The notes: a model not told the origin generated them from the letters alone. A stretch of 58,657 nt of DNA from a bacterium (GCA_024228115.1 JAAETT010000151.1:1-58657); one strand, 5' to 3'. Positions 1 through 38,155 are shown, numbered from the stretch's first letter. Translations and numbers: made by a program.

Positions 1-135
1 CAGTCTGTGCGGTAGAATCCGGCTTCATGAAGGGGCCCTTGTTGAGGGGAAACGGGTGTCGCAACACGTTTCTACCGCAACTGGGGCCTTCTTCAATTCA
101 AGAACGAGACTTCTTCATGAATTTTCCGGGCTAGA
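1..135. repeat. 135-bp inverted repeat, left copy
   Basis: Positions 1-135 match the reverse complement of 58520-58654 with six mismatches (left positions 16, 55, 101, 107, 124, 126), about 95.5% identity. Inside are a foldback of TGCGGTAG (8-15) with CTACCGCA (72-79), the palindrome CTTCATGAAG (23-32) and a second TTCATGAA (114-121). The inner edge lies on the TAG stop codon of the AraC-type gene, in a CTAG tetranucleotide, as it does at the other end. The repeat may continue beyond the window. It could be the end of an insertion sequence, a MITE or a 3'-UTR repeat. No transposase is present to decide. Confidence 0.9.
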
Positions 136-1186
136 CCTTCTGACTCCGCCGATGTGCGGCTGTCGTCGGCGCGCGCGCCTTTCGGCGAAACCCCTGGGGC
201 GTCTGACCCGTCCAGCGCCGGAAAGCGTGGTCGAACGCGCTGAGCTCCGAGTAGCCGAGCAGGAACGCGATCTCCTCCAGGTCGTTCACGGTCTCTTCGA
301 GATAGCGGCGCGCGAGCTGGAAACGCACGCGTGCCACGAGATCCCGATACAGAATGCTGCGTTCCTCCAGACGGCGCTGAAGGGTGCGCACGCTGAGTCC
401 GAGCTGAGGCGCCACCGATCGGATGGGCGGGTGTCCGTCGCAGACCCGGCTCGCAACGAGCATCTCCACATCGCGGAGCCAGGGGTCCGAGCCCTCTGTC
501 GGCTCCAAAGCATCTTGGAGCTGGTGCTCGGCGATGGGAAGCAGGTAACGATCTGCGCCGGGTACCTCGGCGCGAAGGTCGCGGGCGTCGAAGGAGATCG
601 ACGCGACGGTGCAACCGAAGCGCAGGCGCGGACAGATCGCTGCCACGTGCTCTCGGGGGTCCGAGGGCGCGTCGTGCTGGAATGACACGTCGTGTGGCTG
701 CCAGTCGGGCCCCCTGAGGCGCCGCATCATGCGGACGAGCATCACGAGACCGGCCTCCGCAAGGTGTCGCAGGGCGTTTCGATCGGCCGCTGGGATCCGG
801 GGAATCTCCAGCGTTGCCGTCTCGCCGCGGACCTCGAGGGGTGGCGTCCCCAGCCCCTGGCCCAGCGCCGCCGAGTAGCGAGCGAGATTTGCAAGCCCGA
901 CCGCCACGGTCGGAGCGTTGAGCACCGCATAGGAAAAGGGGCCCAGGGTCGCGAGCCCGAAGCTCGCGCCTACGTGGAGGCCGAGAGCGTCGTCGCCCAG
1001 CTCGCGAGCCGCGGCGTTGAACAGGGTCACGACCCGATGCAGGTCGAGCATACGCCTTGGGTTCGCCAGGTCGGCTGCCGTGATCCCGGCTTCGTCCCGC
1101 AGCGACCGGGCCGGCCCGCCCGCCGCTGCCACGAATTCGAGCGCGGCCCTCGCAACGCTCGAATTCAGTCGGATGATGGGGCCCAT
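131..1186 (-). CDS. AraC-family transcriptional regulator (Arabinose_bd + HTH_18 type)
   Basis: A 351-aa DNA-binding regulator. The N-terminal ~200 residues resemble the Arabinose_bd-type sensor domain found in regulators of lipid and hydroxy-fatty-acid genes. The C-terminal ~100 residues carry the double helix-turn-helix of AraC proteins, with SVRTLQRRLEE in the first HTH, LEEIAFLLGYSELSAFDHAF in the second, and the closing FRRWTGQTPQGFRR. An in-frame TTG lies four codons upstream at 1198, but it falls inside a palindrome, so I chose the ATG at 1186. The gene diverges from the SCP2/ferritin-like operon and probably controls it. Its TAG stop is the inner boundary of the left repeat. The ligand is not evident from sequence. 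Confidence 0.85.
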   Translation of the reverse strand: MGPIIRLNSSVARAALEFVAAAGGPARSLRDEAGITAADLANPRRMLDLHRVVTLFNAAARELGDDALGLHVGASFGLATLGPFSYAVLNAPTVAVGLANLARYSAALGQGLGTPPLEVRGETATLEIPRIPAADRNALRHLAEAGLVMLVRMMRRLRGPDWQPHDVSFQHDAPSDPREHVAAICPRLRFGCTVASISFDARDLRAEVPGADRYLLPIAEHQLQDALEPTEGSDPWLRDVEMLVASRVCDGHPPIRSVAPQLGLSVRTLQRRLEERSILYRDLVARVRFQLARRYLEETVNDLEEIAFLLGYSELSAFDHAFRRWTGQTPQGFRRKARAPTTAAHRRSQKV

Positions 1187-1191
1187 ACCTG

Positions 1192-1214
1192 GCACCAAAT
1201 ATCAATGTTGGTGC
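1192..1214. promoter_or_regulatory. Palindromic operator candidate in divergent promoter region
   Basis: Perfect inverted repeat GCACCAA-N9-TTGGTGC between the AraC-type gene and the 1299 operon. It sits just upstream of the regulator's ATG and ~85 bases before the SCP2-like gene. The position suits auto- and cross-regulation. AraC proteins more often bind direct repeats, so the binding protein is an inference. Confidence 0.45.
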
Positions 1215-1298: not shown

Positions 1299-1721
1299 AT
1301 GAGCATTCGATTTCCGTCCCTCGAGTTCTTCAGGGCGCTGCAACAGCGCGCGAAGGACGACGCAGATGTGTTCGAAAAACTCGGCGTCTGCGACACCACG
1401 TTTGGCATTCGGGTCGGAGACGATCTGTATCGGATCGCGTTCGAGGTCTACGAGTGCACGGAGGTCGATGAAACGAATGATCCGGCTTCACTCGACTTCG
1501 TTCTCACTGCGCCGGTCCAGTTGTGGAAGGAGATGTTCGCGTCCGTACTTGCGAACGGGGGTGCGGATGCTGCGCACACGATCAATACACTGACGCATGT
1601 AGGCGACGTGATGAAGGTCGAATACGAAGACCCGGAAGGCCACGACCGTCTCTATCGCTTCATGGCGACGATCCAGGAGTTCCTGGACGAGGCCCAGCAC
1701 CTCGATGTGGAGCTGGGCTGA
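1299..1721 (+). CDS. SCP2-like sterol-carrier domain protein (putative)
   Basis: A 140-aa soluble, acidic protein starting at ATG 1299 after an AAGAGGA ribosome-binding site. The spacing of hydrophobic strands, a W-K-E-M segment near residue 71 and a terminal amphipathic helix resemble a single SCP2 lipid-binding domain (a hydrophobic pocket for acyl chains or sterols). The match is by pattern only. There is no signal peptide or membrane segment. Its stop overlaps the next start in TGATG, so it is translationally coupled to the two ferritin-like genes. It may deliver a lipid substrate to them. Confidence 0.5.
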   Translation: MSIRFPSLEFFRALQQRAKDDADVFEKLGVCDTTFGIRVGDDLYRIAFEVYECTEVDETNDPASLDFVLTAPVQLWKEMFASVLANGGADAAHTINTLTHVGDVMKVEYEDPEGHDRLYRFMATIQEFLDEAQHLDVELG

Positions 1722-2806
1722 TGTCTTACATCGGACCGAAGGACTTCTCGGAGGACACGAATCTGATCGCCGAAGTGATGCGGGTCATGAGCGGCGACCT
1801 CAATCTGGAGTGGATGAAGGACTGTCCTCATGCCATGACCGCCCGTCCCAGCCAGGCGCGTCGCGGTCTCACGCTGGACGATATCAACGACGATCCGTAC
1901 TACGGGCCCTCGGCGATACCGGAGATCATCCGGCGTCACTTCTCGATGACTCCTCGCGGCGGTGTCCTGCCCGAAGGCTTGCCGTCGCTGGGCTACCGAC
2001 TGAACCGAAAGAGCGATGTCTGGGCCGATTCAGCAACGGTGTTGTTCGAGGAAAGCAAGTCTCGACGCTGGGCGCCGGCCCGCAGCGTGCCCTGGGATGC
2101 GCTGGACGAGGCGTCGCTCAGCTCCGAAGAGGACGTGGCGATCCGCCAGCTGTGCACCGGTTTGACCTCGATCGGTCTCGTCTCCACGGATGTGCCCTCC
2201 CGCTGGGTCTGGTTGATGAACCAGGATTTCCACGAAATCAAATACTGGATGTGCGCGCAGATGTTCGACGCGACGCGGCTGGCTGAGGCCTTCCGCAAGC
2301 GAGCGCTCTACGGCCAGGGCGCATTGGGATGCGATTCTCGGGAGCTCGGTGAACTGCTCAAGATCATCATGGAGTCGGATACCTACCCGTTGGCGTCTGC
2401 AGCGCTGAACCTCACTCTGTTTTCCTTCGTTCAAAGCCTCGGAAGACGTTTCGAGTTCTCGTCGACGAATGCCGCCGACACCTACCTCGGAACCCGGCTC
2501 GTGCAAGACGCCTCGCGTTTCATCGCGTATGGCGTCGATCACATTCGCCAACTCGTGGGCACTCGTCCCTCCCAGGTCGAGATCGTCAATGATCACCTGG
2601 ATCTCGTCGAGAATGGGCTCGTCGGCTACCTCGGCTCGCGAGAACTCATCGAGCCGCTGATCGTGCTCTCGGGCGGTGTCGAGTCCGTGGCCGCGTTCTA
2701 CCGCAGGGCCGCAGAGCAATACTTCGAGCGCTGCATTGCCGCCGGACTCGGCGAGCGCCAGGACCGCAGCCCGCTTCCGGCCTTCCTGAAACTACTCGAT
2801 AGCTAG
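1721..2806 (+). CDS. Ferritin-like protein lacking all di-iron ligands (pseudoenzyme paralogue)
   Basis: A 361-aa all-helical protein, colinear with its downstream neighbour: N-terminal MSYIGPKDF against MSYYGSTDY, a shared LNRKSDVWA segment, and shared AFRKRAL/VFRKRAL helices. At the ligand positions of the neighbour it has S150 for E150, A184 and L187 for the first E-A-R-H, F234 for E234, and A264 and F267 for the second E-A-R-H. A ferritin-type di-iron centre therefore cannot form in the usual way. The fold looks intact and the frame is open, so this looks like a maintained non-catalytic partner, not a decaying copy. A heteromer with the next product is the simplest inference. Substrate unknown. 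Confidence 0.7.
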   Translation: MSYIGPKDFSEDTNLIAEVMRVMSGDLNLEWMKDCPHAMTARPSQARRGLTLDDINDDPYYGPSAIPEIIRRHFSMTPRGGVLPEGLPSLGYRLNRKSDVWADSATVLFEESKSRRWAPARSVPWDALDEASLSSEEDVAIRQLCTGLTSIGLVSTDVPSRWVWLMNQDFHEIKYWMCAQMFDATRLAEAFRKRALYGQGALGCDSRELGELLKIIMESDTYPLASAALNLTLFSFVQSLGRRFEFSSTNAADTYLGTRLVQDASRFIAYGVDHIRQLVGTRPSQVEIVNDHLDLVENGLVGYLGSRELIEPLIVLSGGVESVAAFYRRAAEQYFERCIAAGLGERQDRSPLPAFLKLLDS

Positions 2807-2818
2807 ACAGGAAAAATC

Positions 2819-3958
2819 ATGAGCTACTACGGATCGACCGACTATCTGGCGAATGACGATTTCGTTCTTCGCATGAAGGATATCCGCAAAGGCAACCTCG
2901 ATCTCGGATGGATGAAGGCCGGCACAGAGCAGGTCGAGATCCACGCGGAGAACAAGAAGCGCGGGCTCACGTACCTCGATCTGAACAAGGGGAGCTACGG
3001 CTATGACGATCTCGAGGAGGTTCCGCGCGGCCCGCGAGGCATTGCCCCGCGAGGTGCGAGCTACGATGTGGCCGACCAGGCTGACATGGGGCCGGAGCTC
3101 AATCGCAAGAGTGACGTGTGGGCCTATAAGGTCGCTTCGTTCTACGAGGAGACCCTGAGCCGCCAGTGGGACGCAACGACCGATATTCCCTGGCGCGATC
3201 TCGACAAATACGAAGTGCCGCTCGAGGTCGAGATTGCGTTCGCACAGCTCTGCACCATGTTGACGGAAGTCGAGATGGTTGCGACGGATCTGCCTGCGAA
3301 GTGGTGTTGGCGGATGAACAACCAGTTTCACGAGGTCAAGGGCTTCCTCGCTGGGCAGGCGATGGACGAAGCGCGTCACGCAGAGGTTTTCCGCAAGCGA
3401 GCGCTGGCCGGCGGCGTTGGCTTGATGCAGGGGAGCCCGCAAGCCGAACACTCGCTCAAGGCAATCCTCGACTGCGATACCTACAGCGAGGCGAGCGCTT
3501 TCATGCATCTGCTCGCCGAGGGGAACATCCTGACGATGTTCCGCTTCAGCGAGTTCATCTCGCCGACTGCCCTCGACAAGCGCATGTTCCAGCTCGTCAT
3601 GCAGGACGAGGCCCGCCACGTTTCGTATGGCCTCCAGCACCTCAAGTGGATCGTCGACCAGGCACCGGAACGCCGGGAGCAACTGCACGCGGCTCTCGAT
3701 GAGGCGGAGAACTTCAGCCTGAAGCAGTTCGATTCCGCGTTGTTCGAGGCGATGATCGTGCTCGCGGGCAAAGGCACCTCACCGGAACAGATCAAGAAGG
3801 GCGTCGAGATCGTCGGCACGCTGCAGATCAAGCAGGTCGAGGAGTACTTTCAGCGATTGCAGCGTGCCGGATTCGGCGAGCGCATCGAACGGAGCAAGTT
3901 CCGCGATTTGCTTGCGGCCATATCGTTGAAACAGCAGGACCCCGCGCTACCTGCCTGA
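2819..3958 (+). CDS. Ferritin-like di-iron protein, probable oxygenase/oxidase
   Basis: A 379-aa helical-bundle protein with the expected ligand set. E150 lies in LTEVEM, E184 and H187 in MDEARHAEVF, E234 in LLAEGNIL, and E264 and H267 in MQDEARHVSYG. Two E-x-x-H motifs about 80 residues apart are typical of carboxylate-bridged di-iron oxygenases and oxidases in the ferritin superfamily. The start is an ATG 12 bases after the upstream stop, preceded by ACAGGAAAA. No membrane segment. It is last in the SCP2-pseudoenzyme-enzyme operon. Oxidation of a lipid or acyl substrate is possible, but the reaction cannot be named from sequence. Confidence 0.7.
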   Translation: MSYYGSTDYLANDDFVLRMKDIRKGNLDLGWMKAGTEQVEIHAENKKRGLTYLDLNKGSYGYDDLEEVPRGPRGIAPRGASYDVADQADMGPELNRKSDVWAYKVASFYEETLSRQWDATTDIPWRDLDKYEVPLEVEIAFAQLCTMLTEVEMVATDLPAKWCWRMNNQFHEVKGFLAGQAMDEARHAEVFRKRALAGGVGLMQGSPQAEHSLKAILDCDTYSEASAFMHLLAEGNILTMFRFSEFISPTALDKRMFQLVMQDEARHVSYGLQHLKWIVDQAPERREQLHAALDEAENFSLKQFDSALFEAMIVLAGKGTSPEQIKKGVEIVGTLQIKQVEEYFQRLQRAGFGERIERSKFRDLLAAISLKQQDPALPA

Positions 3959-4122
3959 ACTCGGAAGGCGGGCGCAATCTGGATCGCCCCGTCGCCCATT
4001 GAACTACCCGTGTTTCGATCTGGGGAAGAGGGCCCAGGGCCCTGAGAACCGGAGTCGTCGCCGAGCCGTGTCGGCTATCCTTCTGACGACGATTGATTGC
4101 CGGCTCTCGCAAGGAGGCGACC

Positions 4123-5847
4123 ATGAGCGCATATCTCGGGGACGCGGTTCTCCTCTACCTGCAGGAACTCATCGACTGGGAGGCCTACTTCGGCTGGCGC
4201 AAGGGCGGCGACTGCGATGTCGAGGCGGAGCAGGGAGCTCTGCGCGACATCCTCGCGGCCGGCGCCCAGATCTGCGAAGAGCAGGAACCCGCGCTGCGCG
4301 CCGGCTGGTACGAGAGCGCGACGCTCGAGGACGGCGTCGTGAAGTACCCGGCGCATATTGCGGAGACCCTCGCGAAGCTCCGCGAGGCTGGGCTGGTGAG
4401 CTTCGGGGTCGAGGAGCAGTACGGCGGCTTCGCGCTTTCGAGCTTCGTTTCGAATGTGCTCCTGCAGATGGTCTCCCGCGCGGATGCCGGCCTGATGACG
4501 ATCCTCGGGCTCCAGGCCGGAGTGGCGGAGGACATCCAGCAGTACGCATCGGACGAGTTGAAGGAGACCTATCTGCCGCGCTTCGCCTCGGGCGACGTGA
4601 TGGGCGCGATGGATCTCACCGAACCGCAAGCGGGTTCGGATCTCGGCGCGATCACCACCCGCGCCACCGAAGAAGAGGGGCGCATCTTTCTCGACGGCCA
4701 GAAGATCTTCATCACGAACGGCGGCTGCGAGATCCATCTGGTCCTGGCACGCGACCACGACACCTTCGAGGCGTCGAAAGGAACGACCAAGGGCCTCTCC
4801 TTGTATCTCGCTCCACGCACCCTGCCCTCCGGAGAGCGCAACGGAATCAGCGTGCCTCGCCTCGAGGAGAAGCTCGGCATCCACGGCTCGCCGACGGCGG
4901 CGGTCCAGTTCGACCACGCCGAGGCTTTCCTCGTGGGTACGAAGGGCGACGGCTTCAAGGCGATGCTCTCGCTGATGAACAACGCGCGTCTCGGCGTCGC
5001 CGCCCAGGGAATCGGCATCGCGGAAGCCGCGCTGCAAGTGGCAATCGCCTACGCGAAGGAACGGATCCAGTTCGGGCAACCCATCGCAGAGCAACCACTC
5101 ATGAAGGATCGGCTGGCAAAGATGACCTTGGCACTCGAGGGCAGCCGTGCGCTTCTCTATCGGACCTGTTCGCTGGTCGACCAGAATCGCGCCATCGGGA
5201 TCGCGCTCGCGCGCGGGGGCCAGTCCGAGGCAGAGCGCACCGAGCTCGAGGCACTCGTCGATCGCAACGACACGCGAATCCGACTGCTCACCCCGCTCGC
5301 GAAGTACATGGGCACGGAAGCCGCTGACGAGATCAGTCGCGAAGCGATCCAGATCCACGGCGGTCTCGGATTCATGGCCGAGTCCGAGGTGGGCAAGCTC
5401 CACAGCGACGCGATCATTACCACGATCTACGAGGGTACGTCCGAGATCCAGGTGTCCTTCGCACTCAAGGAGATCGGCAAGGGCGCTCTCGGCGTGGTCT
5501 TCGAGACGCTGGAGAAGGAGCTCAAGGCCTTCGAGGATCCGGCATTGAAGGAACCCGCGGATCGCGTACTGGAGGGCATGTCGCTGATCCTCGACGCCTC
5601 GAGCGCACTGATGGCCGATTTCAACTACGCGCTCATGTCCGCGCAGTCCCTGGCGGAAGTGGTCGCGAGTGTGATCGCAGGCGCCGAACTGCTGAAGCAG
5701 GCCCAGGCGGATCCGCGTCGGCTCGATCTCGCAGCTTCCTGGGTGAACCGACGCATGATCGACCTTGCTGGCCGGTGCCAGCGCATCAAGGAAGGCTCGA
5801 CGGATCGACTCGATCGCGCCGCCAACATCATCGCTCTGGCCGAGTAG
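4123..5847 (+). CDS. Acyl-CoA dehydrogenase, large form
   Basis: A 574-aa flavoenzyme that oxidises acyl-CoA to the trans-2-enoyl-CoA. ATG 4123 follows a strong AAGGAGG site. The FAD/substrate segment MDLTEPQAGSDLGAITT, the IQIHGGLGFMAE helix and the catalytic-base motif IYEGTSEIQ are all present. About 110 residues follow the catalytic glutamate, so this is the long class with an extra C-terminal helical domain, not the ~390-aa class found at 34.5 kb. The gene stands alone. The 164-base gap upstream contains a short GC hairpin (AGGGCCC with GGGCCCT) but no clear promoter. Confidence 0.9.
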   Translation: MSAYLGDAVLLYLQELIDWEAYFGWRKGGDCDVEAEQGALRDILAAGAQICEEQEPALRAGWYESATLEDGVVKYPAHIAETLAKLREAGLVSFGVEEQYGGFALSSFVSNVLLQMVSRADAGLMTILGLQAGVAEDIQQYASDELKETYLPRFASGDVMGAMDLTEPQAGSDLGAITTRATEEEGRIFLDGQKIFITNGGCEIHLVLARDHDTFEASKGTTKGLSLYLAPRTLPSGERNGISVPRLEEKLGIHGSPTAAVQFDHAEAFLVGTKGDGFKAMLSLMNNARLGVAAQGIGIAEAALQVAIAYAKERIQFGQPIAEQPLMKDRLAKMTLALEGSRALLYRTCSLVDQNRAIGIALARGGQSEAERTELEALVDRNDTRIRLLTPLAKYMGTEAADEISREAIQIHGGLGFMAESEVGKLHSDAIITTIYEGTSEIQVSFALKEIGKGALGVVFETLEKELKAFEDPALKEPADRVLEGMSLILDASSALMADFNYALMSAQSLAEVVASVIAGAELLKQAQADPRRLDLAASWVNRRMIDLAGRCQRIKEGSTDRLDRAANIIALAE

Positions 5848-7368: not shown

Positions 7369-8514
7369 TCAGTCCGTAGCGGACGGCTCTTCAGGCGAAT
7401 CGGGCGAAGTACCGTCAGCGTTGCAGGCCTCTGGCCATCCGGCCTCGCCCCATACCAGTCGACGGATGTTCAGCACCGGTTCGTAGTCGAACTCGGAGTC
7501 GTACGCATGATGCACCAACCAGTCGATTCCGTTCTCCGAGTACACGTCGGCGTGCCCAGTGCCGATCAAGCGTCCGTCGCGCTCGATGAGAACAGTGCCC
7601 CCTTCTGCGATGAGCGGAACGCCTTCGCGGTCGACGTAGGGGCCTTCCAAGGCCTCGGATCGGCCGACGAGGATCTTGTACTTCGTTTCGGCACCCTTGC
7701 AGCAGCTGTTGTGCGACAGGAAGAGGTAGTAGTAGTCGCCGCGCCGGATGATGTACGGGGCCTCGATGATCGGATCCGCTTGCAGGAGCGGACGGGCTGC
7801 GAGGACGACGAAATCGCGCGGGTGCTGTGTGGGCCTCAGGGTCTCCGAATCGATCTCGGCCAGGAGGAGCCCGCCGAGCGTAGAGCCGAACACGAGCCAC
7901 GGCGTCTCGTCGTCATCGATGAACAGGTGCGGGTCGATTGCGTTGTACAAGACATCGTCAACGCCGCAGATGAAGTCGAAGTTTTCGAAGAGTGGCGTCG
8001 ATCGAAGGATCAACCCGTGGTCGACCCACTGGTAGCGCGGGTCGCTTGGGTCGAGGGTGACGTTCGTCGCAAGGCCAATACCCGCGTTGCAAGTCCCACC
8101 GATGTGGCTCTGGTAGAAGAGGATCCACACACCCCGGTAGAAGGCGATGTCCGGTGCGCCGATGTGGTCCGGGTTCGGAAGCTCCTCGATCACCCACGGT
8201 GGGAGCTCATCGAAGATCTGGCCAGCCTCGGTCCATGTAACCAGGTCAGGGGAAGTATAGAAGGACGCGAGCGGGCTCGAAGAGTAGACGTAGTAGGTAT
8301 CGCCAAGCTTCGCGATGGCGGGGTCGTGGATGGGGGCGACCTGGCTCTCGAGGTCGACGATGTTACCGGTGCAGCCCGGGCCCGGTTCCTCGAGGTCCGC
8401 GATGAACGGCGGGCCGTCTTCGCAGGTGAGGAGGGCGAGGGCAACCACGGCAAGGGCTGCGGTTCGAACCATGCTGGGACGGGCTCTGTTCAGTCGCGGA
8501 AAATGTGAAACCAT
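7369..8514 (-). CDS. Exported glycoside hydrolase family 43-like (arabinanase/arabinosidase type)
   Basis: A 381-aa secreted or lipid-anchored glycosidase with a hydrophobic export signal (VRTAALAVVALALLTC). The Cys is a possible lipobox, although T at -1 is unusual. The five-bladed propeller acids of GH43 are seen: HDPAIAKLGDTYYVY (base Asp), IDPHLFIDDDETPWLVFGS (pKa-modulating Asp) and IIEAPYIIRRGDYYYLF (acid Glu). GTGHADVY carries the conserved His. Start chosen at ATG 8514, about 13 bases after AGGAGGG; ATG 8472 would shorten the signal n-region and ATG 8550 would lengthen it. Arabinan or arabinoside cleavage is inferred from family. Confidence 0.8.
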   Translation of the reverse strand: MVSHFPRLNRARPSMVRTAALAVVALALLTCEDGPPFIADLEEPGPGCTGNIVDLESQVAPIHDPAIAKLGDTYYVYSSSPLASFYTSPDLVTWTEAGQIFDELPPWVIEELPNPDHIGAPDIAFYRGVWILFYQSHIGGTCNAGIGLATNVTLDPSDPRYQWVDHGLILRSTPLFENFDFICGVDDVLYNAIDPHLFIDDDETPWLVFGSTLGGLLLAEIDSETLRPTQHPRDFVVLAARPLLQADPIIEAPYIIRRGDYYYLFLSHNSCCKGAETKYKILVGRSEALEGPYVDREGVPLIAEGGTVLIERDGRLIGTGHADVYSENGIDWLVHHAYDSEFDYEPVLNIRRLVWGEAGWPEACNADGTSPDSPEEPSATD

Positions 8515-8865
8515 CCGCAATGCAGCGCCCTCCTGAGGGGAGAATGCCACGCCAACCGATTCATGAGTCTTTCGGGTCAGCGACGGGTGTGCTCATGCAA
8601 GAGCGCCCCGGCCCTTCTTCCGCCCCCAGCAGCGTCTCCCATGCAGAGGCGGGTGAAGCCATGACCGAGGCGGCTATGGATTGAGACCCACCTCATCGAG
8701 GAGGTGAGGCGGACCGCGCCAATGCCCCGCGAAGCCATCCCACCGCGCCCCCTGATGCGGCCCCTGACCCGCGGAGCGAGCACCCCACATGTCGTGGTTG
8801 AGTGGCTGGTCACCACAAGATCTTGTAGGGGACTAGAAAAAGTTCAATGAAGACGAAGATTTTGG
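8515..8865. other. Non-coding stretch upstream of mraZ
   Basis: About 350 bases with no convincing gene. A small hairpin, CACCTC-N6-GAGGTG, lies at 8689-8706. The open frames here have no ribosome-binding site or recognisable domain. Promoters of the GH43 gene and of mraZ lie at its two edges. Confidence 0.5.
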
Positions 8866-8894
8866 TTGGCAAGCTGCCGATCCCTGTCTATAAG
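8866..8894 (+). promoter_or_regulatory. Sigma70-type promoter of mraZ/dcw cluster
   Basis: TTGGCA (8866-8871), a 17-base spacer, then TATAAG (8889-8894): a close match to the housekeeping promoter at the ideal spacing. Transcription would start near 8901, about 45 bases before the mraZ ATG, so the MraZ boxes would lie on the initial transcribed region. Confidence 0.7.
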
Positions 8895-8937
8895 AGGGAT
8901 GTCGTGGCAGCAAGTGGCATGAAGTGGAAGGACAGGG
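8894..8937 (+). promoter_or_regulatory. MraZ-box array (five repeats, 10-bp period)
   Basis: GAGG (8894), GTGG (8904), GTGG (8914), GTGG (8924) and AGGG (8934) begin exactly 10 bases apart, ending 7 bases before the mraZ ATG. The known MraZ operators of other bacteria are TGGG-type repeats with a 10-bp period in the mraZ leader, so this is almost certainly the autoregulatory site of the dcw operon. It overlaps the -10 element. Confidence 0.7.
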
Positions 8938-8944
8938 CAAGTCG

Positions 8945-9391
8945 ATGGCACGCGGCCGGTTCTTCCACGCAATGGACGAAAAAGGGCGAGTGAGTATCCC
9001 AGCCGTGTTGAGAAACGAACTTCAAACACAAGACGAGCGGCCCCCCTTCCTGACCAGTGTATTGGATAGCCCCGCCGTCGGCCTCTACGCCCACGAAACG
9101 TGGCTCGCGATCGAAGAACGCCTCAAGAATGTTTCACAGATGAAGCCAGAGATCGCATCCCTCCGACGCATGGTGATTTCCGGCGCCGTCGAGTCTCCGA
9201 TCGATGGCTCTGGACGAATCTTGATCCCGCCCCATCTGCGTGAGCACGCGCAGCTGGAGCGGGACGTCACGATCGCGGGCGTCGGCTCGCGCATCGAGAT
9301 CTGGGACAAAGCCCGCTTCGACGAGGAACTCGGATCGATCCGCCAGCAGGGTCGCGAGGTTTCCGATGTCGCCGCGGAGCTGGGTTTGTAG
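8945..9391 (+). CDS. mraZ: Transcriptional regulator MraZ
   Basis: A 148-aa AbrB-fold regulator with two SpoVT/AbrB-like repeats. The first holds FHAMDEKGRVSIPAVLR (residues ~7-23) and the second SPIDGSGRILIPPHLREHA (around residue 85). These D-x-K/S-G-R-x-x-I-P motifs are diagnostic. MraZ represses the dcw operon by binding repeats in its own leader, which are visible upstream. I chose ATG 8945 over the in-frame GTG at 8924 because the protein family starts at M-A-R-G-x-F and a purine-rich GGACAGGGCAAG precedes it. Confidence 0.95.
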   Translation: MARGRFFHAMDEKGRVSIPAVLRNELQTQDERPPFLTSVLDSPAVGLYAHETWLAIEERLKNVSQMKPEIASLRRMVISGAVESPIDGSGRILIPPHLREHAQLERDVTIAGVGSRIEIWDKARFDEELGSIRQQGREVSDVAAELGL

Positions 9392-9711
9392 GGAGAAGTG
9401 TTTTTTTTGGGGGGGGTCCCGGAAGCGCAGGCTTCCGGGCAAGAGAGATGGGGTGTCTCCGGAGTGCTGAGCTGAGACGCGCGGGAATCGTTGGGGGGCG
9501 TGCCCCCGCGACTCAGAGACGCGCTCCGGAGCTCCCCAATCTCTCCTCCCTGGAACCGCCCGGCGGTTGAGAGGTTCCGAACCTCCACGTCTCCAATCCT
9601 CGTTGGGCGGGGGCAGCGGATGCTGTTCTCGCGAATCAAGCAACGGGGGATCGCGGCACGGCGATCCCCACCGAGGTGGGCCCCGAGCGAGATGCCGGGT
9701 CCAGGACCGAG
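9392..9711 (+). promoter_or_regulatory. Structured mraZ-rsmH intergenic region with T8G8 tract
   Basis: A 320-base gap, far longer than any other gap inside the dcw cluster. It starts with eight T (9401-9408) followed by eight G (9409-9416). Then come four foldbacks: CCCGGAAGC-GCAG-GCTTCCGGG (9418-9439); a long imperfect stem pairing 9443-9467 with 9524-9545 around an inner GC hairpin; a small GAGGT/ACCTC hairpin near 9570-9584; and GGGGATCGC-N6-GCGATCCCC (9646-9669) just before rsmH. It is likely a cis-acting RNA leader or attenuator. No known riboswitch class was recognised. Confidence 0.55.
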
Positions 9712-10665
9712 TTGAGCAGCGAACCTCTCCACCAGCCCGTACTTCTCGCCGAGTGCATGAACCTCCTGGGTGCCGAACCCGGGAGAACCTTCGTCGATGG
9801 AACACTCGGCTATGCGGGCCACGCGGAGGCGCTGCTGCGCGAGACGGCGCCCGATGGCTTGCTATTCGGGCTCGACCGCGATGCGGATGCCCTCGCTGCT
9901 GCAGCTGAACGGCTCGCGCCCTTCGGCGACCGCGCCGTCCTTCTCCACGCGTCCTTTCGTGAACTCCGCGATGTGCTGAAGGCCCGCGGTGTCTCCCAGG
10001 TCGACGGAGTACTCCTCGATCTGGGTGTTTCCTCGGTGCAGCTCGATCAGGCCGCGCGCGGCTTCCGCTTCTCGGAAGAGACCGCCGAAGAAACCCCCCT
10101 CGACATGCGCATGGATGCCAGCCGAGGCGAGACCGCGGCGGACCTGCTCGCTCGGGCTTCCGAGGAGACGCTCACCGATTGGTTCCGGCGCTACGGCGAA
10201 CTCCGGGGCGCTGCCCGTCTGGCCAGAACGATCGTGGAAACGCGACGCGAAGCCCCGCCGCGAACCGCGGCGGATCTCATCCGCCTGACCCGCGAAGCCC
10301 GGGTCGGCGGGGGCCGCCGGCATCACCCGGCCACCCTCGTCTTCCAGGCTCTGCGGATTGCCGTGAACGACGAGCTCGGTGCCCTGGAAGAAGGACTGGC
10401 CACGGCGACGAGTGTTCTCGCGCCGGGCGGCCGGCTCTGCGTCATCGCCTACCACTCGCTCGAAGACCGGATCGTGAAGCACTACATGCGCGACGCCGAG
10501 CGCGGTTGCATCTGTCCGCCCAAGGATCCCATCTGTACCTGCGGGATCCTGCCCAGCCTGCGCCGCGTCACGCGACGACCGGTTCGGCCAGACCCTGAAG
10601 AGATCGCCGGAAACCCGCGGGCGCGTTCGGCTCGCCTGCGGGCCGCAGAAAGGCTGGCAGCATGA
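9712..10665 (+). CDS. rsmH: 16S rRNA (cytosine1402-N4)-methyltransferase RsmH (MraW)
   Basis: SAM-dependent enzyme that methylates N4 of C1402 in 16S rRNA. Features: HQPVLLAECMNLL at the N-terminus, SAM-binding FVDGTLGYAGHAEALL, LDLGVSSVQLD, RGFRFSEE, and the C-terminal AYHSLEDRIVKHYMR. About 317 aa, of normal length. The start is uncertain. TTG 9712 best fits the family N-terminus, while an in-frame GTG at 9676 would add 12 residues; neither has a strong ribosome-binding site, and the 9646-9669 hairpin lies just upstream. It ends in ATGA with ftsL. Confidence 0.93.
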   Translation: MSSEPLHQPVLLAECMNLLGAEPGRTFVDGTLGYAGHAEALLRETAPDGLLFGLDRDADALAAAAERLAPFGDRAVLLHASFRELRDVLKARGVSQVDGVLLDLGVSSVQLDQAARGFRFSEETAEETPLDMRMDASRGETAADLLARASEETLTDWFRRYGELRGAARLARTIVETRREAPPRTAADLIRLTREARVGGGRRHHPATLVFQALRIAVNDELGALEEGLATATSVLAPGGRLCVIAYHSLEDRIVKHYMRDAERGCICPPKDPICTCGILPSLRRVTRRPVRPDPEEIAGNPRARSARLRAAERLAA

Positions 10666-11039
10666 GTCGGGCCTGGAGTCAGAAACGGGCGCGGCTCTTC
10701 GATGGGGCGACCAAGGGGACGGAGAACCTCGTCGGCCGCGACATGAAGCGGACACGCCGCCGCCGGCGCGGCGGGCGCATCGCCTGGCTGCCCATCTTCG
10801 TCGGCGTCCTGGCCGCCGCCCTCTTCCTGGTCGCTCTGCGGAACTCGATCCTTCGCGTGCGCTACGACCTCGACGCCGCGCGTCAGCGCGAAACCGCGCT
10901 CATGGAACGCAAGGCGAACGCCACCGTACGGCTGCGTGAACTGCGCGATCCCACCCGTTTGAATGCCCTCGCCAAGGAGCGCGGCTTCGTCAGGCCCGAG
11001 AAGGTCATCGACCTGGGAATGGGGGCAGCGCGCCCATGA
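10662..11039 (+). CDS. ftsL: Cell-division protein FtsL
   Basis: A 125-aa bitopic membrane protein: an Arg-rich cytoplasmic tail of ~38 residues, one membrane helix (IAWLPIFVGVLAAALFLVAL) and a periplasmic coiled coil with a heptad-like pattern up to RLNALAKERGFVRPEKVIDL. FtsL pairs with FtsB and FtsQ and activates FtsWI. Identification rests on topology, length and position between rsmH and ftsI, because the family has little sequence conservation. It overlaps both neighbours by 4 bases. Confidence 0.8.
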   Translation: MSRAWSQKRARLFDGATKGTENLVGRDMKRTRRRRRGGRIAWLPIFVGVLAAALFLVALRNSILRVRYDLDAARQRETALMERKANATVRLRELRDPTRLNALAKERGFVRPEKVIDLGMGAARP

Positions 11040-13159
11040 GATCCGCGGATCTGCGCCATTCCGGACGGCGAACCCTGGGCGTGGGCGTGGGCCTGCTCCT
11101 CTTCTTCGGTGTCCTGGCGGTGCGGGCCGCTCATCTCTCGGTGATCGATGGCCGCGGCCTCGAGCGGGGCGACCGCCAGACGATCACCGTACTCCGGGTG
11201 GCACCGGCGCGAGGCATGATCACCGATCGGCACGGCTCGGAGCTCGCCATCACCGTGCAAGCCCCGTCGGTCTATGCGGTCCCCGCGCAGATCAAGGACA
11301 AGCGAGCGACCGCGGGAAAGCTGGCGAAAGCCCTGGGCAAGAACACCGCGACCGTCCTCGACCGGCTCGAAAAGCGCTCGCCCTTCGTGTACGTCGATCG
11401 CTGGCTCGGCGCGTCCCAGGCCGCCGCGGTTCAGGCCCTCGAGCTACCCGGCGTCGGCCTGGTCGACGAGCCGCGCCGCGCGTATCCGCACAAGGCCCTG
11501 GCGGGGCGTCTGGTCGGGTTCGCCAACATCGATGGCCTGGGTGCCCGCGGCATCGAACAGATGGAAGATGGCTGGCTCGCGGGGCAGGCGCGCACGGTCG
11601 TGGTCGAACGCGACGCCCGGCAGCATTTGCTCCCCAAGGCCGGTGTCGACCCGCGGACCAGCGTTGGTGGGGATGTCGCCCTCACGCTAGACGCCACGCT
11701 CCAAGCCGAAGCCGAGACCGCCCTCTACGAGGTCGTTCGGCAGACCGGATCCCGTGGCGGTTTCGTCGTCGTGATCGACCCGCAAACCGGCGATCTCCTG
11801 GCCCTGGCCGAAGCTCCCGGTTTCGACCCGGGTGCGTTCCGAACGACGCCCTACCCGCGGACCGCTTCCTGGGCCTTCCTCAACGCACCGGAACCGGGAT
11901 CCACGCTCAAGCCCTTCGTCATCGCAGCCGCCCTGCAACGCGGCACCGTGCGCACCGACGAGCTCTTCGATTGCGAGCAGGGGCGCTGGAAGGTGCCGGG
12001 GAAGCTCATCCACGACGTCAAGGGCCATGGACTCCTCGACCCGGCAGGCATCTTGCGGGTCTCGAGCAACATCGGCGCGGCCAAGGTCGGCTTCCGGGTT
12101 GGAGCGCAACCGCATTATGAAATGCTGCGCGCGCTGGGTTTCGGCAGCCGGAGCGGCAGCGGCTTCCCGGATGAATCCGCCGGTTTGTTGCGCAGCTGGA
12201 AGCGCTGGCGAACGGTGGACCACGCCAATGTTTCGTTCGGGCAGGGCCTGAACGCCACGGTGATTCAGATGGCGGGGGCGATGGCGACCCTCGCGAGCGG
12301 AGGCGTGTTCCACCAGCCACGGCTGATCGCGGCGCGGCGCAAGCCGGGGGGCCTCTGGGAGACCGCTCCCGAAGCGAAGAGCCGTCGTGTGTTGCGCCCG
12401 GAGATCGCCCGCACGGTCATGGACATGCTGCACGGGGTCGTGGCGGACAAGGGCGGCACCGGCCGGCGTGCGGCACTCGAGGGGGTAGCCGTCGCCGGCA
12501 AGACAGGTACGGCCCAGAAGCTCGACCTTGCGGCTGGGCGCTACTCCCATGAGGACTATCAGGCCTGGTTCATCGGCGCGGCTCCGGCCGAAGCCCCGAT
12601 GATCGCCATGGCCGTCATGCTCGACGAACCGCGCGGCAAGATCCACGGTGGCGGCTCCGTCGCCGCGCCGCTCTTTGCACGGGTCGCCTCAGCGGCGCTT
12701 GCTCAGCGGGGCGTCGTTGCGCTGCCGAAGCTCGGGCTGCCGGATCTTGCCCGGGTCGACTTGCCGAAGAACCCGAGTGCGAAGGAAACTGCGAAGCGGG
12801 TGGCCCGTCCCGCCTCCAGGCCTTCCGCCCGCCCGGATGTCGCAGCGGCACGGCCCAAGCCGCAATCGAATGGAAAGGTGGCGAAGAAGAACGCAGCCGG
12901 AGCCCGCAGCCCGGCCGTCGAACCCAGGCGGGTCGCGGCGCGGCCCACGGCCCCGACGCCTCTGGCCCAGCTCGGAGGTCGCGTCCTGCTTCCGGATTTC
13001 CGAGGGCTCAGCCGCGGAGAGGTGCAGACGATGGCCGCCGGCGTCTCGCTGCGGCTCGTGCTCGATGGCCACGGACAGGCCGTCAAACAACATCCCGCAC
13101 CCGGCACGATCGTCGGCGGCTCCTCCGCCGTGCGCGTACGCTTCGAACAGGGCATCTGA
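11036..13159 (+). CDS. ftsI: Septal peptidoglycan transpeptidase FtsI (PBP3) with PASTA domain
   Basis: A 707-aa class B penicillin-binding protein that cross-links septal peptidoglycan. It has one membrane helix at residues ~14-31 and a dimerisation domain. The transpeptidase motifs are S289-T-L-K292 (SxxK), S343-S-N345 (SxN) and K489-T-G491. An Ala/Arg/Pro-rich linker of ~85 residues leads to one C-terminal PASTA domain (about 643-707). PASTA-bearing FtsI is usual in delta-proteobacterial lineages but not in enterics. Starts in ATGA with ftsL; ends in TGATG with murE. Confidence 0.95.
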   Translation: MRSADLRHSGRRTLGVGVGLLLFFGVLAVRAAHLSVIDGRGLERGDRQTITVLRVAPARGMITDRHGSELAITVQAPSVYAVPAQIKDKRATAGKLAKALGKNTATVLDRLEKRSPFVYVDRWLGASQAAAVQALELPGVGLVDEPRRAYPHKALAGRLVGFANIDGLGARGIEQMEDGWLAGQARTVVVERDARQHLLPKAGVDPRTSVGGDVALTLDATLQAEAETALYEVVRQTGSRGGFVVVIDPQTGDLLALAEAPGFDPGAFRTTPYPRTASWAFLNAPEPGSTLKPFVIAAALQRGTVRTDELFDCEQGRWKVPGKLIHDVKGHGLLDPAGILRVSSNIGAAKVGFRVGAQPHYEMLRALGFGSRSGSGFPDESAGLLRSWKRWRTVDHANVSFGQGLNATVIQMAGAMATLASGGVFHQPRLIAARRKPGGLWETAPEAKSRRVLRPEIARTVMDMLHGVVADKGGTGRRAALEGVAVAGKTGTAQKLDLAAGRYSHEDYQAWFIGAAPAEAPMIAMAVMLDEPRGKIHGGGSVAAPLFARVASAALAQRGVVALPKLGLPDLARVDLPKNPSAKETAKRVARPASRPSARPDVAAARPKPQSNGKVAKKNAAGARSPAVEPRRVAARPTAPTPLAQLGGRVLLPDFRGLSRGEVQTMAAGVSLRLVLDGHGQAVKQHPAPGTIVGGSSAVRVRFEQGI

Positions 13160-37733: not shown

Positions 37734-38151
37734 GGAGGTGGACGGAGGATCGCCGGCGGGCAAGCATCGCCCGCGGGAGGAAAGTCCGGGCTCCATAGGG
37801 CAGGGAGGTCGCTAACGGCGACCCGGGGTGACCCGAGGGAAAGCGCCACAGAAACGACACCGCCGATGGCCCTTGATCCCGGCCGCTCTGAGAGGGGTAG
37901 CCGGAGGAGGCACAGGCAAGGGTGAAAACGTGGGGTAAGAGCCCACGCGCGACAGCCGGGTGACCGGCGGCGGGGCAAGCCCCTCCCGGAGCAAGCTCGA
38001 ATAGGGACATCGCTGAGGGCGACCCGCCCAAGGTCCGCAAGGGCCCGGTGTCCGGGTGAGAGTGCTGGAGCGACGCAGCAATGCGCCGCCTAGATGAATG
38101 ATCCTTGCCGGCCTCCGGGCCGGAACAGAACCCGGCTTATAGTCCACCTCC
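37734..38151 (+). ncRNA. rnpB: RNase P RNA (bacterial type A)
   Basis: Catalytic RNA that matures tRNA 5' ends. The universal P4 strand GAGGAAAGTCCGGGCTCC is at 37777-37794. The 3' conserved block has AGATGAATGA and ACAGAACCCGGCTTAT (38125-38140). Helix P1 fixes the ends: GGAGGTGGAC (37734-37743) pairs with GTCCACCTCC (38142-38151). About 418 nt, normal for type A. It is immediately followed by a 41-bp hairpin repeat. Confidence 0.95.
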
Positions 38152-38155
38152 GGCA

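Follow-up and report, generated by a model that had tools for sequence, protein, structure and literature searches.

The 58,657-nucleotide stretch of bacterial DNA analysed here (GCA_024228115.1 JAAETT010000151.1:1-58657, "the window") carries a unit of three genes whose products probably work together as a dimetal oxidase or oxygenase (P2), a metal-free partner subunit related to it (P1) and a carrier for a lipid-type substrate (SCPL). The positions of these genes and of the codons discussed below are collected in Table 1. P1 and P2 lie on one strand with an intergenic gap of 12 nt, exactly as an earlier note on this DNA had placed its two ferritin-like paralogues in one operon, and the stop codon of SCPL overlaps the start codon of P1 as TGATG, the coupling of the small gene to P1 that the same note had pointed out. 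All three genes, SCPL, P1 and P2, make up the true unit. The divergent AraC-type regulator that had been counted with them is present, but it is not a conserved part of the unit; it is common only to the window and the nearest contigs (L036, L037 and L042) and a check of the other 20 loci did not find it, which rules it out as a core part. The acyl-CoA dehydrogenase gene (4123-5844) is likewise treated as local, because in none of the other loci that are long enough does a homologue of it follow P2 directly.

Table 1. Genes of the unit and its surroundings in the window, with the P2 ligand codons and their P1 counterparts
Feature	Position	Strand	Basis
SCPL: leading gene of the unit, small protein of SCP2 fold, 140 aa	1299..1721	+	sequence, AlphaFold, fold matches
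P1: proposed partner subunit, 361 aa, a ferritin-like paralogue that has no metal ligands	1721..2806	+	
P2: ferritin-like enzyme, full dimetal ligand set, 379 aa	2819..3958	+	
AraC-type regulator (Arabinose_bd + HTH_18), divergent, local accessory	131..1198	-	Pfam PF12625, PF12833
P2 codon E152, probable helix-1 ligand	3272..3274	+	conserved in divergent relatives
P2 codon E150, helix-1 ligand named by the earlier note	3266-3268	+	
P2 codons E184-A-R-H187, EXXH of second helix	3368..3379	+	
P2 codon E234	3518..3520	+	
P2 codons E264-A-R-H267, EXXH of fourth helix	3608..3619	+	
P1 counterpart of first EXXH: A184-T-R-L187	2270..2281	+	
P1 counterpart of second EXXH: A264-S-R-F267	2510..2521	+	

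The P1 and P2 proteins are 36% identical, and columns 101-300 of their alignment, which contain all of the ligands, are free of gaps. The earlier statement that the two align without indels thus holds across the ligand span, but not over the whole length, where P1 lacks 10 residues close to its C terminus and three further gaps of one residue each occur. Where P2 has its ligand residues (E150/E152, E184, H187, E234, E264 and H267), P1 has S150/G152, A184, L187, F234, A264 and F267, and the S, A, L, F, A and F reported previously for the six named positions are indeed what the alignment gives. As to the ligands of P2, E184, H187, E234, E264 and H267 stand as named, but the helix-1 ligand is probably E152 and not E150; in divergent ligand-complete relatives of P2 (G174_x2, G129_C, L112, L055_D1/D2, L087 and L089) position 152 is always E, whereas position 150 may be E, P or G, so that E152 is the likelier of the two and replaces E150. 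Both glutamates are invariant in all 36 P2 proteins of operon types A-C (described below) and neither is found in any P1, so the conclusion that P1 has lost its ligands is unchanged by the renumbering.

The full ligand set (E152, E184, H187, E234, E264 and H267) is invariant in the 36 P2 homologues and follows the order E, EXXH, E, EXXH in a helical bundle (fold Z 20-21). P2 is accordingly best described as a predicted member of the ferritin-like dimetal-carboxylate superfamily, which would bind metal and activate O2. On the other hand, the 186 ligand cells of 31 P1 sequences contain not one D, E or H, but are occupied by A, S, L, F, V, C, G, I, Y, P, M or T. Among the 93 alignment columns in which P2 never varies, 28 are fixed in P1 too (e.g. 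W31, W101, E111, R115, D263, R266, Y270 and G271), and at 16 the P2 residue is never seen in P1; all six ligands are among these 16 (hypergeometric probability about 1e-5), and by this count of alignment columns the absence of the ligands from P1 is not due to chance. In the last EXXH of P1 the D and R stay invariant and the E and H are gone, a site pattern that looks like selective clearing rather than drift. There are in addition 19 positions at which P1 is conserved but P2 is not, the P1-specific residues including S75, K113, C178, D205, Q238, N250 and H292. Residues such as C178, D205 and H292 could belong to an active site newly formed in another part of the fold, in which case P1 would be an enzyme in its own right; we regard this as very unlikely, since the ligand positions hold small or hydrophobic residues in every copy (i.e. 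the pocket has not been re-armed) and P1 never occurs without P2.

In the phylum sample (379 genomes) there are 30 P1-type loci in 22 genomes, all inside the window's class. The P1 frame is intact in all 30, and all 30 have an adjacent P2-type gene on the same strand (for the 30th, the neighbouring P2 was confirmed by inspecting the region itself). In the close relatives P1 is never broken, and it is missing only together with the whole type A or type B unit or at a contig end; the survey of gene neighbourhoods likewise gave no P1 without a P2 beside it. The unit as a whole is patchy, with homologues in 17 of 61 genomes (that of the window plus 60 relatives). In a tree of 69 sequences the P1 proteins form one clade (support 100/100), whose split into P1A and P1B is mirrored by P2A and P2B; therefore the duplication and the loss of ligands happened once, before the two operon types diverged. 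The distance matrices of P1 and P2 are correlated (Spearman 0.85 for type A and 0.68 for type B), and pairwise dN/dS values for P1 are mostly 0.07-0.21, which indicates purifying selection; a single very close pair, the window and L036, has a value of 0.41. (Between the window and L036 (1299-2803) synonymous divergence is 0.31 in SCPL and 0.06 in P1, which hints at recombination.)

P1 evolves about two times faster than P2 (mean distance 0.34 vs 0.18 in type A), and this rate and the dN/dS of the window/L036 pair are the two features that might suggest a decaying duplicate, kept by chance in the operon. The intact frames, which extend over several families, the purifying selection and the 28 invariant columns shared with P2 rule this out for practical purposes, and we give decay almost no credence. 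As in the twins of the PaaC and Rnr4 kind discussed below, P1 has lost its ligands yet is conserved and linked to an active copy. With a P2 gene always adjacent, a single origin, purifying selection and co-divergence with P2, the earlier proposal that P1 is a maintained partner is borne out, and its role as a partner subunit is well supported. P1 might instead be a separate regulator or chaperone that helps P2 to acquire its metal or responds to a ligand, and remains outside the working enzyme. It has conserved residues of its own that P2 does not share (S75, K113, C178, D205, Q238, N250, H292 and others), and a chaperone function has been proposed for Rnr4 of yeast (PMC3824934); nevertheless a stoichiometric subunit would account at least equally well for the strict 1:1 linkage with P2, the short distance between the genes and their parallel divergence, and profile searches of P1 matched no known sensor or chaperone motif, so we consider a separate regulator or chaperone unlikely.

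The genes occur in three arrangements: SCPL-P1-P2 (type A, the window), SCPL-P2-P1 (type B) and P2-SCPL with no P1 (type C). Since operons of the last kind exist, P1 is dispensable in some branches of the family. The window's genome has a second copy of the unit, of type B, on contig C542 (L006; SCPL 9629-10066, P2 10092-11216 and P1 11235-12335), and a third P2 (L007), truncated where contig C334 stops, which has SCPL and a TetR gene in front of it in the manner of type B. A TetR-family gene lies just upstream in 10 of the 12 type B loci (PF00440 was checked on L047); L056 and L006 are without it. Within about 8 kb no conserved neighbours were found beyond SCPL and, in type B, the TetR gene, and no reductase gene was among them. 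Two loci contain more than one unit or additional relatives: in L043 a type C unit (2549-4099) and a type A unit (7579-10248) lie about 3.5 kb apart on one contig, facing away from each other, and in L055 a type B unit has beside it a tandem of two ferritin-like genes (10186-12182) whose ligand motifs are complete; a check of one of the two gave a match to PF11583 (AurF). Some distant P2 relatives (L087, L089 and L113) have an unusual N-terminal extension that is TusA-like by eye, and those of L087 and L089 adjoin a gene for a phosphonate-type periplasmic binding protein (PF12974 checked for L089).

SCPL is directly upstream of the pair in all 24 P1 loci examined in detail, at a distance of -1 to 70 nt, and in type C it likewise lies beside P2; it is the most constant companion of P2 (the SCPL of L044 carries a deletion). 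None of 23 SCPL sequences matched the Pfam SCP2 family (PF02036) at E<=1. The AlphaFold model of the protein (pLDDT 93.9) nevertheless has an SCP2 fold, which agrees with its previous description as SCP2-like: the nearest solved structures are 2cx7 (Z 13.8, rmsd 2.1 over 119 residues) and 1wfr (Z 12.5), further matches are the SCP2 domains of alkylsulfatases, human MFE-2 and UbiJ, and the list consists mostly of SCP2 structures. SCP2 folds typically bind lipids (PMC6747719), and from its model we infer that SCPL is a carrier of a lipid-type substrate. There is a parallel in UbiJ and UbiT, SCP2 proteins that serve the ubiquinone hydroxylases, the latter working with the UbiU-UbiV heterodimer (PMC6747719). 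Like SCPL, these are small SCP2-fold proteins tied to an enzyme, in their case hydroxylases, and UbiJ-SCP2 structures are among the fold matches of SCPL; however, SCPL is nearer to the SCP2 structure 2cx7 than to UbiJ (Z about 8), and the UbiT partners UbiU and UbiV are not ferritin-like.

P1 and P2 are in the same frame, and when the window DNA is read with TAG as Q they form one P1-linker-P2 chain, which was modelled with AlphaFold from an alignment of 18 rows. The fused model has a pTM of 0.74 and a mean pLDDT of 71, with uneven quality (the five models range from 71 to 53) and a shallow alignment. Two halves of undefined relative placement are expected to score a clearly lower pTM, by our own estimate rather than a calibrated control, and because the observed value exceeds this the model modestly favours a defined P1-P2 interface; joining two paralogues may itself promote dimer-like docking. 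The P2 half of the model is most similar to 6d9f (Z 21.2), to VlmB (8wvr, Z 21.1) and to the cyanobacterial aldehyde-deformylating oxygenase (Z about 20.8, rmsd 2.0 over 209 residues), and it also matches R2-like oxidases, while for the P1 half the matches are to R2-like oxidases (Z about 22) and to subunits of methane monooxygenase. In sequence the best solved relative of P2 is again 6d9f (E 0.001), and a search of the PDB with the P1 profile gave no match. Although 6d9f, VlmB and the aldehyde-deformylating oxygenase are thus the nearest solved folds of P2, the identity is only about 16-19%, and P2 differs from them in its long conserved N-terminal region, its SCPL partner and its ligand-free partner.

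The pair was also compared with several better known families. The R2-like ligand-binding oxidase (R2lox) resembles the P1 half in fold and gives weak profile matches, but NF006200 scores 25.9 bits with P2 and 16.1 bits with P1 against a curated cut-off of 194, so the R2lox identity is rejected, as is DUF455 (PF04305; 26.9 bits for P2 vs a curated cut-off of 34.3). AurF (PF11583) is matched weakly by 18 of 20 P2 sequences (best E 0.0012). In phenylacetyl-CoA epoxidase the structural paralogue PaaC stands beside the catalytic PaaA, with PaaB (PMC4498308), and so both systems have a catalytic ferritin-like subunit, a co-encoded paralogous subunit and a small third protein. The third protein here, however, has an SCP2 fold and is not PaaB, the unit is not accompanied by a reductase gene, and none of 20 P2 or 19 P1 sequences matches PF05138 at E<=1, so an assignment to the PaaA/PaaC family is rejected. 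The paired paralogues of yeast (Rnr2/Rnr4) and of apicomplexans (R2/R4) act as heterodimers in which one member has no working diiron site (shown for Rnr4); Rnr4 pairs with Rnr2 and stabilises the diiron centre of the latter (PMC2704937, PMC3824934). Rnr4 has lost three iron ligands, whereas P1 has lost all six, and P2 is not a ribonucleotide reductase subunit (it falls below the Ribonuc_red_sm cut-off). An enzyme with a ligand-free twin is therefore an already known arrangement, and the fixed SCP2 partner is the most distinctive feature of the unit.

The relatives of P2 bear also on the substrate. Since the best of them in both sequence and fold include VlmB and the AurF-type N-oxygenases, the unit could be a dimetal N-oxygenase or hydrazine-type oxidase that acts on small precursors of natural products, with SCPL as a scaffold only. 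This seems to us quite improbable: SCPL accompanies P2 more constantly than any other gene, also where P1 is absent, lipids are the usual ligands of SCP2 folds (PMC6747719), and no conserved biosynthetic genes were found around the unit. A role in "lipid oxidation", which the earlier note proposed, would rest on the SCP2 fold of the SCPL model together with the fold similarity of P2 to VlmB and to aldehyde-deformylating oxygenases. In the arrangement that we prefer, a dimetal oxidase or oxygenase with a metal-free subunit and a lipid-type carrier, P2 would bind two metal ions (Fe/Fe or Mn/Fe) in its ferritin-like bundle and activate O2. P1, presumably a duplicate of P2 that lost all of its ligands once and was then kept, would pair with P2 as a metal-free subunit and hold it in its active shape, and may form part of a docking surface for the substrate or the electron donor. 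SCPL would bind a hydrophobic substrate (a lipid or isoprenoid-like molecule, possibly CoA-linked) and present it to the P1-P2 pair. Because no reductase gene travels with the unit, the electrons might be supplied by a general reductase or else by the substrate.

When 84,980 species genomes were scanned, 22 loci were obtained, nearly all of them in metagenome-assembled genomes (MAGs) labelled Deltaproteobacteria or Myxococcota; one is in the isolate UBA9160, within the window's order. These results point to a unit with hardly any occurrence outside GTDB class UBA9160, a class name that is read from the name of that isolate. A type A unit was also seen in a MAG labelled Gammaproteobacteria (UBA2168; L041, 7579-10245), by horizontal transfer or in a mis-binned contig; among 398 genomes of that MAG's phylum only this MAG and one distant relative matched. 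Most of what is known of the host bacteria comes from metagenomes, and little of their chemistry has been charted. No description of an operon of ferritin-like and SCP2 genes was found in the open-licence literature, and the three-gene unit is apparently undescribed. Few dimetal enzymes with a metal-free twin are known, and this unit adds another, from bacteria; as one family contains operons with the twin, in two gene orders, and others without it, it offers a natural experiment on the role of the dead subunit, and the fixed SCP2 partner hints at a dedicated lipid carrier that delivers the substrate.

A possible second twin is encoded in another genome of the same class (G174; L093, 1779-4657), where an enzyme, a partially ligand-depleted partner and SCPL are in tandem. 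This partner (G174_x1) has kept E152, H187 and H267 and has lost three of the six ligands (E184 to Y, E234 to N and E264 to C). It groups with its own neighbour (94/82) and not with P1, and a position within the P1 clade is disfavoured (AU p 0.026). The arrangement was found in one of 91 genomes of the class, and because it comes from a single genome and the branches are long, we treat it as a lead only. It is thus a tentative idea, and on balance a doubtful one, that these operons represent a new carrier-coupled family of dimetal oxygenases, with an SCP2-type lipid carrier as a fixed subunit, in which a metal-free twin has been recruited at least twice (P1 of types A and B, and the partner in G174). 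Elsewhere in the window, a bacterial RNase P class A RNA gene is present at 37734-38155 (251 bits).
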